DNA of 42,253 nucleotides from Deltaproteobacteria bacterium (lineage in GTDB: Bacteria; Desulfobacterota; Desulfuromonadia; Geobacterales; Pseudopelobacteraceae). A program made the translations under genes and the position numbers. The notes below the pieces were generated by a model. The model saw only the letters and a list, made by a program, of their open reading frames with translations. It ran no database searches and was not told where the DNA came from. The stretch is from assembly GCA_021778115.1 (NCBI GenBank), contig JAJYCS010000013.1, forward strand, positions 1 to 42,253. Reading direction: 5' to 3'. Numbering within the stretch: position 1 is the first letter of the stretch; every line of letters begins with the position of its first letter. Positions 29,838 through 36,800 of the stretch are shown here, in pieces.

Positions 29838-30254
29838 TCAGCCTACCAGTTCAAGGGCGCTGAAGAAATAGGGGATCTCAAAGGCCGCAGTCTCCGGGGC
29901 GTCGGAACCGTGGGCCGAGTTTTCCTCGATATTCTTGGCGAAGTCCTTGCGGATGGTGCCCGGCTCGGCGTTGGCCGGGTTGGTGGCCCCCATCAGGGTG
30001 CGCCAGTCGGCGATGGCGTTTTCCTTTTCCAGGCAGAGCACCACCACCGGGCTGCGGGACATGAAGCTGCAGAGGTCGTTAAAGAACGGGCGCTCCTTGT
30101 GGACGTAGTAGAAGCCCTGGGCCTGGGGCAGGCTGAGTTGCATCTTTTTCATGCCGACGATCTTGAAGCCTTTTTCCTCGATGCGGCTTAAGATTTGACC
30201 GGACAGGCCGCGCTCCACGGCGTCCGGCTTGATGATGGCAAAGGTGCGTTCCAT
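29838..30254 (-). CDS. ndk: nucleoside diphosphate kinase
   Basis: This 138-aa kinase moves the terminal phosphate from ATP to other nucleoside diphosphates. It starts [19 protein letters not shown]. The active-site histidine is in [11 protein letters not shown], and [18 protein letters not shown] is conserved. Length is normal. ATG 30254 has AAGGAGA at good spacing; the longer frame from 30302 is not needed. It is the first gene of the long minus-strand run and is divergent from rsmB. Confidence 0.98.
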
Positions 30255-30426: not shown

Positions 30427-31788
30427 ATGCTATCGAATTATGCAGCCCACTCCCCTCGCCTGGCGGCATATCAGCTGCTCACCCGTCTGTCCGGCAGCGA
30501 CCTGCATGCCGATGACCTGGTCGATCAAGAGTTGTCCCGCGGGCTTCTGCAGGGCCCTGACCGGGGGTTATTCAGCGAACTGGTGTTCGGCGTGCTGCGG
30601 CAGCAGGGCACACTCGATCACTATCTGGCCCAGCTGGTGGACCAACCGTTGCCCAAGCTGCAGCGGCCGGTGCTCCTGCTGCTCAGGCTGGGGTTGTATC
30701 AGTTGCGCTACCTGGACCGCGTCCCCCCGCATGCGGCGGTGCACGAGAGTGTGGAGCTGGCCAAGCAGCTCTGCCCCAAGGCCAGTGGCCTGGTGAACGG
30801 CGTGTTGCGTGCGGCCTTGCGCCGTCACGCTACCCTTACGCTGCCCGATCGGCATGTTGCGCCGGCCGCCTGGCTCGCTGCTGCGTACTCGATGCCGGAT
30901 TGGCTGGCACAGCAATGGTTGCAGCAGCTCGGTCTGTCTGAGGCCGAGATGCTGGCTGCTGCCACGCTGGAGCCACCTCCCCTGACCCTGCGGACCAACA
31001 CCCTGCGGACCACCCGTACGGAGTTGCTGACGCTGCTGGCCGGCCGGGGAATCGCCGCTGAACCCTGCCGGTACGCGTCGGAAGGGGTGCGTCTGCTGGA
31101 AGGACGTTTCGTGCCTGAACTGCCCGGTTTCAGCGACGGGCTGTTTGCGGTACAGGATGAGGCCTCGCAGTTGGTGGCGCACCTGTTGGGGCCACAGCCG
31201 GGGGAAAAGGTACTGGATGTCTGCGCTGCGCCGGGGGGTAAGGCCACCCATCTGGCCCAGTTGATGCAAGATCAGGGCGTGCTGGTGGCCAGCGATCTCA
31301 GCCAGCGCAAGGTCCACAGGATCGAGCAGAATGCGGGCCGTCTGGGGATCGACTGCCTGCATCTCCAGGTGACCGATGCCCTGCAGCCGGAGTACCAGCA
31401 GGGGCGGCAGTTCGACCGGGTCTTGTTGGACGCCCCCTGCTCCGGCCTGGGGGTGATCCGGCGCAATCCCGAGGCCAAGTGGCGGCTGCAGCCTGACAGC
31501 TTTGCACGCTTTGCCGACCGCCAGAGCTTGCTGCTGCGACAGGTGGCGCCTCTGCTGCGACCCGGCGGGGTGCTGGTGTATGCCACCTGTTCCACGGCCG
31601 TGGCGGAGGATGAGGCGGTGATCGAGGATTTTCTTTCCTGTCATCCGGAGTTTGTGGTAGAAAATGGCGCTCAGGTATGCCCGGCATGGGCGGAGTTATT
31701 CACCCCGGCCGGCTGTCTGCGTACCTGGCCTCACCGCCAGGGGTGCGACGGTTTTTTTGCCGCCCGGTTCAAAAGGATGAATGTATGA
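30427..31788 (+). CDS. rsmB: 16S rRNA cytosine-967 C5-methyltransferase
   Basis: This protein of about 453 aa has an N-terminal NusB-like RNA-binding domain (about 10-140) and a C-terminal Fmu/NOP2 methyltransferase domain. The domain shows [19 protein letters not shown] for SAM binding, one catalytic cysteine in [15 protein letters not shown] and the other in [12 protein letters not shown]. It makes m5C967 in 16S rRNA. The frame is open from 30229, but homology begins at ATG 30427, which overlaps a leaderless-type promoter. It overlaps rpe by 4 bases (ATGA). Confidence 0.95.
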
Positions 31789-32450
31789 AAAAGATAGCGC
31801 CTTCGATACTTTCCGCCGATTTTTCACGACTTGGCGACGAGATCCGGGCCGTAGAAGCGGCCGGGGCCGATTACCTCCACGTCGACGTGATGGACGGCCG
31901 GTTTGTGCCCAATATCACCATCGGCCCCTTGGTGGTGGAGGCGGCCCGCCGCGTGACCGGCCTGCCCCTGGACGTGCACCTGATGATTGAAGAGCCGGAA
32001 CGGTACGTGGAATCCTTCGCCAAGGCCGGGGCCGATATCATCGTGGTGCATGCCGAGGCCTGTCGGCACCTGCACCGCGTGGTGCAGCAGATCAAGGGGC
32101 TGGGCACGAAGGCCGGCGTATCGCTCAATCCGGCCACGCCGCTCTGTGCGCTTGAGTATGTGCTGGAGGAACTCGATCTGGTGCTGCTGATGACCGTCAA
32201 CCCCGGTTTTGGCGGCCAGTCCTTCATCGAGTCGGGCCTCCACAAGATTCAACAGCTGCGCGGCATGCTGGACCGCCGCGGCTGCGAGGCCGAACTGGAG
32301 ATTGACGGCGGGGTCAAACCGTCCAATGTCAGCCAAATCGCCCATGCCGGGGCCGACGTCCTGGTGGCCGGCTCGGCCGTGTTCGGCAGTAGCGACTACG
32401 CCGCCACCATTGCCGAGATGAAACGCCTGATGCAGGAGCCGCGTTTGTAA
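31785..32450 (+). CDS. rpe: ribulose-phosphate 3-epimerase
   Basis: This 221-aa TIM-barrel enzyme interconverts ribulose-5-phosphate and xylulose-5-phosphate in the pentose phosphate pathway. Motifs are [16 protein letters not shown], the metal and catalytic stretch [38 protein letters not shown] and the catalytic Asp in EIDGGV. Length is normal. The ATG overlaps the rsmB stop as ATGA; an AAAAGGATGA ribosome site lies inside rsmB. Confidence 0.97.
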
Positions 32451-32477
32451 CCTCATTACCCCAGGAACGGGAGCGCC

Positions 32478-33410
32478 ATGGCCGATAGCGTACTGATCAT
32501 TGACGATTCGGAGGCTGTCAGGGAGAAGATCATCAAGATCCTGGAGACCCAGGACCTGTTTTCCCGTTTCTATCAGGCCGAAGATGGTCTGGAGGGGTTC
32601 AAGAAACTCTTGGCCTCACCGGTGGACATCATCCTCTGCGACCTGGAGATGCCCCGTATGGACGGCTTCAAGTTTCTAGGTATGTTGAAGACGCGACCGG
32701 ATGTGTCCGACACCCCGGTGATCATCCTCACCGGCAATGAAGACCGGGAGCTGAAGATCAGGGGGCTGGACCAGGGGGCCTGCGACTTCATCACCAAGCC
32801 GTTCGACGCCGAGGAGCTGGTGGCCCGGATGCGGGTCCACCTGAAGATCAAGCATCTGCAGGACGATCTGAAACGGACCAACGAACTGCTGCTGGAGCTC
32901 TCAAATACCGATCACCTGACCGGACTCTTCAACCGCCGCTACCTGATCGAGGCGTTGGACCGGGAGATACAGCGTTCCCGGCGCAAGGACGGCATGGTGG
33001 CGCTGATCATGCTGGATCTGGACCACTTCAAGCGGGTTAACGACACCTACGGCCACCTGCAGGGGGATGTGGTGCTGCAGAAGGTGGCGCTGCAGTTGCA
33101 AAAGGAGCTGCGCAGCTATGATGTGGCGGCCCGTTACGGCGGCGAGGAGTTTGTGGCGATCCTGCCGGACACCACCCTGAAGGAGGCGTTCATGGTGGCG
33201 GACCGGGTCAGGCTGTCCATCCAGGGGATGCATCTGGCCGGTCCCCTGGCCGGCGAGCGGATCACCGCCAGCCTTGGGATTGCAGCATCGCCCTCACCTC
33301 ACTACGACGACATCGACGGCCTGCTGCGGGCCTCCGACGAGGCGCTCTACCTGGCCAAGGAGCGGGGCCGGAACCGGGTGGTGGTCAGCGACCCGGACAG
33401 CATCACCTAA
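32478..33410 (+). CDS. REC-GGDEF diguanylate cyclase response regulator
   Basis: This 310-aa protein has a receiver domain (about 4-120; Asp55 in IILCDLEMPRMDG, Lys107) and a GGDEF domain (about 140-305). The active site GGEEF is at 221-225, and a c-di-GMP inhibitory site RSYD (R212xxD215) sits five residues before it. It should make c-di-GMP from two GTP when phosphorylated, with product feedback. No cognate kinase gene is adjacent. It is the first gene of a likely operon with a 66-aa protein and a secreted transglutaminase-fold protein. Confidence 0.95.
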   Translation: MADSVLIIDDSEAVREKIIKILETQDLFSRFYQAEDGLEGFKKLLASPVDIILCDLEMPRMDGFKFLGMLKTRPDVSDTPVIILTGNEDRELKIRGLDQGACDFITKPFDAEELVARMRVHLKIKHLQDDLKRTNELLLELSNTDHLTGLFNRRYLIEALDREIQRSRRKDGMVALIMLDLDHFKRVNDTYGHLQGDVVLQKVALQLQKELRSYDVAARYGGEEFVAILPDTTLKEAFMVADRVRLSIQGMHLAGPLAGERITASLGIAASPSPHYDDIDGLLRASDEALYLAKERGRNRVVVSDPDSIT

Positions 33411-33431
33411 CCGATCTCCAAGGAGTAGACT

Positions 33432-33632
33432 ATGGATCTGAACCCCGACGAACAACGCCTGATAACCGCCTTCCGCACCCTTTCCCCCACCGCCCGGGAG
33501 GACCTGTTGACCTACGCCACCTCCGTGGCCCACCGCGAGACCCCCCTGGAGGGTTCCCAGGGCGGTCAGTGCGGCCTCCGGCAGGCGTCACACCACCCCG
33601 AGGCTGATAAAAGCCCGATATTCACGGAATAG
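33432..33632 (+). CDS. small conserved-type protein of unknown function
   Basis: This 66-aa protein is real by position and by its strong ribosome site (AAGGAG, 7 bases from the ATG). It lies 21 bases after the diguanylate cyclase and 11 bases before the transglutaminase-fold gene. The first 35 residues (LNPDEQRLITAFRTLSPTAREDLLTYA) predict a two-helix unit of the kind found in short helix-turn-helix-associated or regulatory tails. The second half is polar, with no membrane or signal segment. I do not recognise its family. Confidence 0.65.
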   Translation: MDLNPDEQRLITAFRTLSPTAREDLLTYATSVAHRETPLEGSQGGQCGLRQASHHPEADKSPIFTE

Positions 33633-33643
33633 GAATTGAATAC

Positions 33644-35098
33644 ATGTCGCATGCAGCTCTAAAGACCCGCTGGCTGGCGGCCCTATGCGCCGCCTTTTTC
33701 ATGCTTTCCGCCCTACGCCCGGCCATGGCCGCCCCCCTGCTCAACGCCCCACCCGTGGGAGAACGGTGGTTCGGTATCCTGGTGGATAATGAACAGGTCG
33801 GTTTCTACCGGCAAGAGATCACCCGTCTGCCTGACGGCAACTTCCGGATCGAGGCCGATGGCAGCGTCAGGATGCGGGTGATGGGTTTCACCAAGGAGGC
33901 CACCTCCCGGGAGGTCTACCGGATTGAGCCTACCCTGGGGCTGCAGACCCTGAAGGTTGACCAGACCATCAACGGCACCCGTTCCCAGTTGGTGGGCAAA
34001 AAGGTCCGAGGCGGCCTGCTGGTGAAGCGGACCGTTGAGGGGAAAAGCAGGGACCGGCTTTTCAAAATGCCGGGGGACCTGATCCCCGGGCCGGTGCTGA
34101 ACCTCTACCCGCTCCTCAAAGGGCCGACACCCGGCACGGTCTACCGGGTGCAGACCTTCGACCCTGAAGAGCTGAAGATCAAGGAGGTCAAGATCACGGT
34201 GCTCGGCGAAGCGGCGACCCCTGACGGCAAACCTGCCATCAAGCTGCGCAACAACCTGTACCCCTTTGTACACAACGACATCTGGGTTGACACCGGGGGG
34301 AACACCCTGCTGGAATCGGTGCGGGACGGGCTGGTGGTGACGAAGGCGGCCACGCCGGAGCAGCTGTCGGCCGTAGTGAGTGGTATGGCCCTCTCCAAGA
34401 AGGACCTGATCTACGATTTCAGCATGGTACGGGCGGAACCGCCCCTGAAAACGGCGCCGGCCAAGCTCACCGGCCTTGCAGTGGCACTCAGCGGCTACGG
34501 TCCTCAACTGCCGCTTGTCACCGATGGCTGGCAATGGGTGGAGCGGATGGGGGACCGGGTGGTCATCAAGACCGGCCGGCTCCGGCCGGATACCACGCCG
34601 GCTGCAACGGCGCCGGACAGCCGGTATCTGGCCTCGGTGGAGGGGATCGAGGCCCTCGCCCCGGCTGTGGTGGCAAAGGCCCGCCAGCTGACAATGGGGC
34701 TTGCCACCAGCGAGGCCCAGGCCAGGGCCCTGATCGACTGGACCGCCCGTTCGGTGACCGACACCGTTGATGACAGCGGCGGCGCCCTAACCGTACTGGA
34801 CAAGATGAGGGGCAACTGCCAGAGCCATGCCAAACTCTACACCGCCCTGGCCCGTGCGGCCGGCATCCCCACCCGGTTCGTATCCGGCCTGGTGTCCCAG
34901 AACGGCAAGGATTTTCTCTATCACAGCTGGGCCGAGAGCTGGCTGGACGGGCGCTGGGTGGCAGTTGACCCCACCTTCGGCCAGATGCCGGCCGACCCGA
35001 CCCACCTGGCGCTGTTCCAGGGACACACCCCCGCCGAACTGGCCCCGCTGGTGGGGATCATCGGCAAGATCAGCATCAACGTCCTGGAAGAGCGGTAG
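33644..35098 (+). CDS. secreted transglutaminase-like cysteine protease-fold protein
   Basis: This 484-aa protein has a Sec signal peptide (about 1-29, AMA cleavage), a beta-rich N-terminal region (35-260) of unknown family, and a transglutaminase-core domain (about 340-460). The catalytic triad is complete: Cys392 in RGNCQSHA, His427 in YHSWAE and Asp442 in AVDPTFGQ. It acts outside the inner membrane, as a peptidase or crosslinking enzyme; the substrate is unknown. It follows the REC-GGDEF gene and the 66-aa gene in the same direction, and converges on a chemotaxis receptor gene 8 bases away. Confidence 0.88.
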   Translation: MSHAALKTRWLAALCAAFFMLSALRPAMAAPLLNAPPVGERWFGILVDNEQVGFYRQEITRLPDGNFRIEADGSVRMRVMGFTKEATSREVYRIEPTLGLQTLKVDQTINGTRSQLVGKKVRGGLLVKRTVEGKSRDRLFKMPGDLIPGPVLNLYPLLKGPTPGTVYRVQTFDPEELKIKEVKITVLGEAATPDGKPAIKLRNNLYPFVHNDIWVDTGGNTLLESVRDGLVVTKAATPEQLSAVVSGMALSKKDLIYDFSMVRAEPPLKTAPAKLTGLAVALSGYGPQLPLVTDGWQWVERMGDRVVIKTGRLRPDTTPAATAPDSRYLASVEGIEALAPAVVAKARQLTMGLATSEAQARALIDWTARSVTDTVDDSGGALTVLDKMRGNCQSHAKLYTALARAAGIPTRFVSGLVSQNGKDFLYHSWAESWLDGRWVAVDPTFGQMPADPTHLALFQGHTPAELAPLVGIIGKISINVLEER

Positions 35099-35106
35099 CT
35101 GTCAGC

Positions 35107-36735
35107 TCAAAGCTGAAACCGCCGGACGATCTGCTGCAGCTGGTCGGACTCCCGCGAGAGGCCGGAAGCCGCTGCAGCGGTCTCCGTCGCCCCTTTGGCG
35201 GTTGTATTCACCACCTCCGTAATCTGATGAATGTTGGTGGTGATCTCGCTGGTGGTGGCGGTCTGTTCCTCGGCCGCAGTGGCGATCTGGTTCACCTGCA
35301 TGCTCACATCGTTGATCTGGTCGAGGATCCGCTCCAACGCCTCCCCCGACTTCATGGAGGAGGCCGTCCCCCGTTCAACCTCGGCCACCCCCTCCTCCAT
35401 CGCCCGCACCGCCCCTTGGGTCTCCTTCTGGATCGCCTTGATCATCTCACCGATCTCACGGGTGGCCTTGGTAGTCCGCTCCGCCAGGGCCCGCACCTCG
35501 TCGGCCACCACGGCGAAACCCCGTCCCATCTCACCTGCCCGGGCCGCCTCGATGGCGGCGTTTAAGGCCAGGAGGTTGGTCTGGTCGGCGATATCCTCGA
35601 TGGTGCCGATAATGGCGCCGATCTGATCGGAACGGGCCCCCAACTCCTCGACGGTCTTGGCCGCTGACCGCACCTGACCGGCGATCCGCTCCATGCCGTC
35701 GATGGTCTCCCGCACCACGGCAACCCCGGAACGGGCATTCTCACTGGCCCGGTTTGAGGCCTCGGCAGCCATGAGGCAGGTGTTTGCGATATCTCCGGAG
35801 GTTGACGCCATCTCCTCGCTGGCCGTTGCCACCGTGACGCTCTGGGCCGCAACCTCCTCCGCGCCGGTGGCGATCTGGTCAGCGGTGGCATGCAGCTGCC
35901 CCGACGAAGCCGCCACCTGCTGGGCGGTCTGGGTCAGCTGCAGGATGGTGTTCCGCAGGTTCGCCGCCATCCTCCGGAAGGATTCGGCCAGCTGGCCGAC
36001 CTCGTCTTGGGACCGGATGGTGACGTCAATGGCCAGGTTGCCGTCCGCCAGGGTATCGGCCTGCCGGGCAAGCTGGGTTACCGGCCCTATGATTGACCGG
36101 GCGAGGAGGACGCTGACCACCAGGGCCGCCCCGATTGCAGCGGCCAGCAACAGGGCCATCACCAGCATGATCCGATGCCGTGCGTGGGCGGCATCCGCCA
36201 TCCCCTGCGCCGCGTCCCTGCTGTTCTTGGTCAAAAGCTTGTCGACCTGTTTCTCCGCATCCTCGATGGAGAGCTTGGTGGTGGCCATGGCCGTGTTGCC
36301 GTCCGCCGCCACGGTAATCTGCCCCTGCTGGATCCGCTGGTAGACGTCGTTGAACCCGGCGATGTAGGTCTCGAAATCCCGTCTGATCGCCGCGCAGTCC
36401 TGCCGTTCCGTCTCATCCTCAGCCAGCTTTGATACCGCGTCGAAGTCCTTGTGGTACCGGTCCACCGCCCGATCAAAGGCGGCGCGGTAGGAGGTGACCT
36501 TCTCCCGGTTGCCGACATTCAGGAAGATATCCTTCTCCGAGCGGCGCATCTGCAGGATATCGGTCAGGAGGCGATCGCACAGGTCAACGGTCCGGTCGCT
36601 CTCGGTGATGTTCCTGACGCTGTCCTCCTCCTGGACAAACCCCCAGATACCGCTACCGCCGCTCACCAGCAGCAGGAGCAGCACCAGACCGAATGCGATT
36701 AGGAGACGCGTGGTGATCTTCAGATTGCTGAACAT
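35107..36735 (-). CDS. methyl-accepting chemotaxis receptor with periplasmic 4-helix-bundle sensor
   Basis: This 542-aa receptor has a first membrane helix (about 8-28), a helical periplasmic domain of about 150 residues resembling 4HB_MCP, a second helix (about 185-207), a HAMP domain ([19 protein letters not shown]) and a cytoplasmic signalling hairpin. The hairpin tip is [26 protein letters not shown]. The C-terminus lacks a CheR-docking pentapeptide. Start ATG 36735 has AAAGGA at 7 bases; the frame opens 7 codons earlier. The ligand is unknown. It has its own promoter. Confidence 0.93.
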
Positions 36736-36800
36736 AGGCCGATCCTTTCTGCGCAAAGGGTACGGGGGTATCCCCGATCAGGGTGATAGTTTTTTGTATC

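Follow-up and report, generated by a model that had tools for sequence, protein, structure and literature searches.

Genes for periplasmic transglutaminase-fold proteins with a Cys-His-Asp triad lie beside c-di-GMP genes in the LapG/LapD system of Pseudomonas fluorescens and the DvhG/DvhD system of Desulfovibrio vulgaris. A similar arrangement is present in the window, i.e., the whole stretch of 42,253 nt analyzed here, which comes from a genome of the genus of Trichlorobacter thiogenes: a gene for a REC-GGDEF diguanylate cyclase (DGC) is followed by a gene for a 66-aa protein (sml) and by that of an exported transglutaminase-fold protein (TG). This raises the question of whether c-di-GMP controls TG by a Lap-like logic with sml as the link, as a sequence-only reading of this DNA had proposed. 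New in the analysis are the apparent identification of the cyclase as EsnD by synteny, an assignment of domains to TG, a strict sml–TG pairing and evidence against sml as the link between the cyclase and TG.

Gene Organization in the Window

When the open reading frames were re-read, DGC, sml and TG were found at the positions first assigned, in the same direction and separated by gaps of 21 and 11 nt (Table 1). The close packing thus stands, but the run is not limited to three genes, as rsmB and rpe also lie upstream: the rpe–DGC gap is 27 nt, and rsmB and rpe overlap by 4 nt (spacing of −4 nt; ATGA at the junction). The overlap and the short rpe–DGC gap suggest that a transcription unit is likely to start at rsmB, the likely first gene of the run, and that all five genes from rsmB to TG are likely to form this single unit.

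Table 1. Features of the rsmB–rpe–DGC–sml–TG run (positions in the window).
Feature	Position	Strand	Evidence
rsmB, 16S rRNA m5C methyltransferase	30427..31788	+	Pfam Methyltr_RsmB-F 9.7e-60, NusB 1.8e-28; start codon assigned from homologues, the ORF itself opening at 30229
rpe, ribulose-phosphate 3-epimerase	31785..32450	+	Pfam Ribul_P_3_epim 5.3e-89
DGC, REC-GGDEF diguanylate cyclase, 310 aa	32478-33410	+	Pfam REC 4.8e-28, GGDEF 1.7e-49
sml, 66-aa cytosolic protein	33432-33632	+	ORF and homologues
sml stop codon (TAG) within putative TG ribosome-binding site (TAGGAA)	33629..33636	+	Sequence
TG, exported transglutaminase-fold protein, 484 aa	33644-35098	+	Pfam Transglut_core 1.9e-22
Codon of TG catalytic Cys392 (partners His427 and Asp442)	34817..34819	+	Alignments

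Sequence scans found neither a promoter nor a terminator between DGC, sml and TG in the window. The search for sigma-70 promoters in 31500-35400 found none where 0.5 would be expected by chance, and is therefore uninformative; a scan for sigma-54 promoters of sml-TG, made because a sigma-54 activator gene is divergent from the pair in other families, gave no convincing one. No Rfam element, GEMM riboswitches included, reached the gathering score in the window. A terminator-like site in the signal-peptide codons of TG (33676-33694) was rejected as a candidate, because four such sites against 2.7 expected are not above chance.

The Cyclase and Its Apparent Identity With EsnD

The REC and GGDEF domains of DGC are complete, and the GGEEF A-site, the RxxD I-site and REC Asp55 are all intact. 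Where cGAMP-type GacA has a Ser residue, the window DGC has Asp (GHLQGD), so that its product is expected to be c-di-GMP. Among 57 relatives, 50 have an orthologue, at 49-91% identity and nearly always as the single copy in a genome at E <= 1e-60. DGC adjoins rpe in three families, being located after rpe in the window's own family (f1) and after rpe or rpe-NUDIX in two others.

In genus g11, the gene order is mtnA-glnE-nth-DGC-NUDIX-rpe-rsmB, and the window DGC has its single best match there. Geobacter sulfurreducens has an operon gatCAB-mtnA-glnE-nth in which glnE is GSU3378 (PMC2700814), the only published gene name found beside GSU3376. Combined with the g11 order, this would make nth GSU3377 and the cyclase GSU3376, i.e., EsnD, so that DGC occupies the same syntenic position. 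The window DGC is thus an apparent EsnD orthologue, as judged from gene order.

EsnD produces c-di-GMP only; when it is lost, growth on electrodes suffers but the reduction of Fe(III) oxide does not (PMC5585712, PMC6456294). EsnD and the window DGC have in common the REC-GGDEF architecture, a c-di-GMP-type active site and the rsmB-rpe-(NUDIX)-DGC position, but in Trichlorobacter the NUDIX gene between rpe and DGC is absent and sml-TG comes after DGC.

The Exported Transglutaminase-Fold Protein

TG consists of a signal peptide (residues ~1-29), a beta domain (~33-237) and a transglutaminase core (~320-484), and its AlphaFold model has a mean pLDDT of 90.8 and a pTM of 0.64. The core scores 80 bits for PF01841 (Transglut_core), where the cut-off is 23 bits, and contains the Cys-His-Asp triad. 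The signal peptide, this match and the near-constant presence of the triad bear out the initial description of TG as a secreted protein whose triad is intact. In alignment A3, 65 of 66 homologues have Cys392, the exception being L133 with Ala, and another alignment contains a homologue with Ser at this position (L048). The proteins with Ala (L043:5819-7276, +; L133:9995-11452, +) or Ser (L048:6244-7692, -) are otherwise conserved, which suggests a non-catalytic role in the L043/L133 and L048 lineages; these natural replacements argue that catalysis is not required everywhere.

The N-terminal beta region had been noticed as large and unknown. Structure prediction and fold search agree with a beta domain and assign it a known fold: the best match is EipB (6ntr_A; Z 14.6, 198 residues aligned, rmsd 3.5), with weaker matches to LmcA and RseB. 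EipB, a DUF1849 protein of Brucella abortus, is a determinant of envelope integrity (PMC10787603) and has the same periplasmic spiral beta-barrel fold as TG residues 34-239, but the two barrels share only 10-14% identity and EipB lacks a transglutaminase domain. Pfam gives no DUF1849 match in TG; the likeness to EipB is one of fold only. By sequence, the region is DUF6134-like in 57 of the 66 homologues and DUF3108-like in four, and the window TG scores 27.8 bits for DUF6134, just below the cut-off of 27.9. According to the model, the beta region is thus an EipB/DUF1849-like periplasmic barrel.

The closest solved structure to TG residues 277-484 is 3ISR (Z 16.5; profile E 5e-08), a putative transglutaminase-like cysteine protease of Cytophaga hutchinsonii, for which the core is alike but the match reports no EipB-like barrel. 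LapG is one of many transglutaminase folds matched by the core (Z 8.4-8.9). Within Geobacterales, 126 of 141 genomes encode TG, whose relatives extend to many further families of the phylum.

The 66-aa Protein and Its Pairing With TG

Homologues of sml (E<1e-10) were found in 38 of the 141 Geobacterales genomes, the window's own included, and pairwise dN/dS is ~0.07-0.6, below 1 in all pairs tested. These results support the original reading of the short frame as a gene and, as judged from these comparisons, sml is a real protein-coding gene under selection. The predicted structure is a helical hairpin (residues 5-16 and 19-35; pLDDT ~90 for residues 1-30) followed by a low-confidence tail, and neither sequence nor predicted structure shows a signal peptide or membrane helix. 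The family consensus is MDLTLDEQRLIAEFRxL...NQCxLK...RPEAxKxPIFTE, with the conserved tail NQCxLK...RPExxKxPIFTE. Outside Geobacterales, the 297 genomes sampled from the phylum gave no more than two weak partial matches, and as far as found the family is confined to this order. Pfam, NCBIfam and PDB contain no clear relative, and no meaningful solved-structure match was obtained by sequence or fold. DUF2281 (PF10047) is matched weakly by 6 of 17 sml proteins (best 3.6e-06) and not by that of the window, and the NQC...PIFTE tail lies outside the part tested against DUF2281.

In all 38 genomes, sml is located immediately 5' of TG on the same strand, 14-271 nt before the TG profile match, and the pairing holds also where DGC is far away; sml therefore belongs with TG. 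TG itself is frequently found without sml, which is missing, for instance, from T. thiogenes, the only named Trichlorobacter isolate among the genomes read. Remnants of sml at L086, L093, L096 and L131, and in G103 with stops, point to repeated loss, and L059, where sml is lost, retains ACCGAATAGGAACC ahead of TG. The stop codon of sml in the window falls within the putative TG ribosome-binding site (TAGGA); with this overlap, translation of the two genes is probably coupled in Trichlorobacter.

Two Separately Conserved Modules

In f1, DGC is located directly 5' of TG in 54 of 58 loci, on the same strand and with gaps of 16-597 nt, and this adjacency persists though TG identity to the window drops to 40-55%. 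In the window and, within the named set, in ten further f1 loci, sml lies between the two genes; where DGC and TG adjoin in f1, it is mostly missing or reduced to a remnant. The expected conservation of the neighborhood therefore holds within f1 for DGC and TG, whereas all three genes are together only in part of this family. In the other families compared (f3 and f4), sml-TG does not adjoin DGC: DGC is 17-28 kb from sml-TG in G038, G040, G041, G047 and G051 and also far from it in G045 and G054. DGC remains with rpe in families where sml-TG is elsewhere, and it is lost with TG retained in G016 and G023. The locus thus consists of two separately conserved modules, rpe-DGC and sml-TG.

At least ten f1 loci outside Trichlorobacter (L069, L078, L085, L086, L089, L093, L095, L096, L099 and L131) carry, after DGC or sml and ahead of TG, a GC-rich hairpin with a T-run behind it, which has the form of an intrinsic terminator. 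The Trichlorobacter loci have short gaps and no such hairpin except one weak candidate (L059). From this difference, the tight operon characterizes Trichlorobacter together with a few other lineages and not f1 as a whole. As to whether the genes stay together in relatives and whether TG is transcribed separately, the outcome is mixed: the trio is kept in part of one family, and a hairpin often precedes TG outside Trichlorobacter.

Another observation is a hairpin, CGCCACC...GGTGGCG with CTTGCATAT or TTTTT after it, within ~180 nt upstream of TG (L070:8517-8563, L083:9917-9961, L093:9906-9949 and ~15 other f1 loci). This hairpin is rare elsewhere in those f1 loci and missing from the window, has no Rfam match and may act as terminator, attenuator or operator. 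Its outer stem was the search criterion and is invariant, so that covariation is uninformative, and counting the bare pattern across whole genomes mostly gives unrelated matches.

Relation Between the Cyclase and TG

The proposal closest to the initial question is inside-out signaling in which c-di-GMP, through an unlinked receptor, controls a periplasmic TG protease so that a surface protein is released or retained. The neighboring cyclase and Cys-His-Asp protein and the fold that the TG core shares with LapG are in favor of this, as is the existence of systems such as DvhG/DvhD, which is molecularly distinct from but functionally analogous to the Lap system (PMC13090378). However, PF06035 (Peptidase_C93) is not among the TG matches at E<=1 and has no match in the window's own genome (G000), which also lacks a match to the LapD N-terminal domain (PF16448); unlike LapG, TG carries the additional EipB-like barrel. 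No adhesin or type I secretion genes adjoin TG, in agreement with the earlier remark that LapD, an adhesin and a transporter are missing. Moreover, sml-TG is widespread without a nearby DGC, and TG relatives occur in many families of the phylum. The LapD/LapG analogy is thus not upheld: with no LapG-family match in TG and no LapD N-domain match in the genome, c-di-GMP gating of TG is unsupported, and a Lap-like mechanism is regarded as very unlikely. The idea that sml links the cyclase to TG, or regulates the cyclase, draws on its intermediate position in the window and those ten f1 loci, but is highly improbable, as sml tracks TG only, was repeatedly lost while DGC and TG stayed together, and has no signal peptide or membrane helix for reaching the periplasm. 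Just as improbable is the view that sml has no protein function and is kept as a leader whose translation sets the expression of TG. Its constant site just 5' of TG, the stop codon inside the TG ribosome-binding site in Trichlorobacter and the final bases kept at L059 would fit such a leader, but the amino-acid conservation of hairpin and tail, with dN/dS below 1 in every pair, holds also at sml–TG distances of 100-270 nt.

A serious rival is that the DGC–TG neighborhood is merely synteny inherited from the ancestor of one family, with no functional relation even on a shared transcript. This is quite possible, though short of an even chance: rpe-esnD and sml-TG are separate in f3 and f4, TG stays after loss of DGC in G016 and G023, and terminator-like hairpins precede TG in relatives, but same-strand adjacency in 54 of 58 f1 loci despite the divergence of TG, together with the tight, terminator-free gaps of Trichlorobacter and some other loci, argues against mere inheritance. 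The preferred explanation, given about an even chance, is that the rpe-EsnD and sml-TG modules merged in Trichlorobacter into one likely transcription unit and are linked by transcription, with no direct c-di-GMP switch. The tight spacing in the window and other Trichlorobacter loci favors this explanation; the hairpins in the f1 relatives, the separation of the modules in other families, the retention of TG in the two genomes without DGC and the natural Cys-to-Ala/Ser proteins weigh against it.

In this two-module explanation, EsnD would act as a phosphorylatable c-di-GMP synthase and raise c-di-GMP for surface-attached growth, in line with the genetics of G. sulfurreducens, where it promotes biofilms on electrodes. 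TG would be exported via its Sec-type signal peptide and act in the periplasm, where the barrel, of the EipB/LolA/RseB type, probably binds an envelope client that the transglutaminase-fold domain might cleave or cross-link. In the cytoplasm, sml would serve TG only, most likely in its production or export. In a bolder and rather doubtful version, sml and TG form an envelope unit of Geobacterales that is new to description, with the cytosolic helical-hairpin protein and its conserved tail dedicated to the periplasmic barrel/transglutaminase-fold enzyme; in Trichlorobacter, this unit would be joined to EsnD so that envelope remodeling and c-di-GMP rise together. The role of EsnD in electrode growth has been demonstrated, and its family-wide association with a conserved envelope protein provides a concrete, testable candidate partner; the sml family, always beside one periplasmic enzyme, is a clean target in the search for a new kind of helper or regulator.

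Genes Flanking sml-TG

In the f3 and f4 loci read, two genes commonly flank sml-TG: one in divergent orientation, with [FeFe]-hydrogenase-like and sigma-54 activator domains, and one for an M16 peptidase in convergent orientation. The divergent [FeFe]-hydrogenase-like/Fe-S/sigma-54 activator gene is seen at L118:6999-9284 (-), where the domains were confirmed by Pfam, and at L116, L121, L123, L046, L047 and L050; judging from its domains and location, the product is a possible regulator of sml-TG. An atoC RNA (RF01733) scores above the gathering threshold at L045:7906-7997 (+) and L046:7948-8040 (+), that of L046 being upstream of the gene divergent from sml-TG. TG and M16 peptidase genes are direct convergent neighbors in most relatives read; in the window, they are separated by a methyl-accepting chemotaxis protein gene (35107-36738, -).
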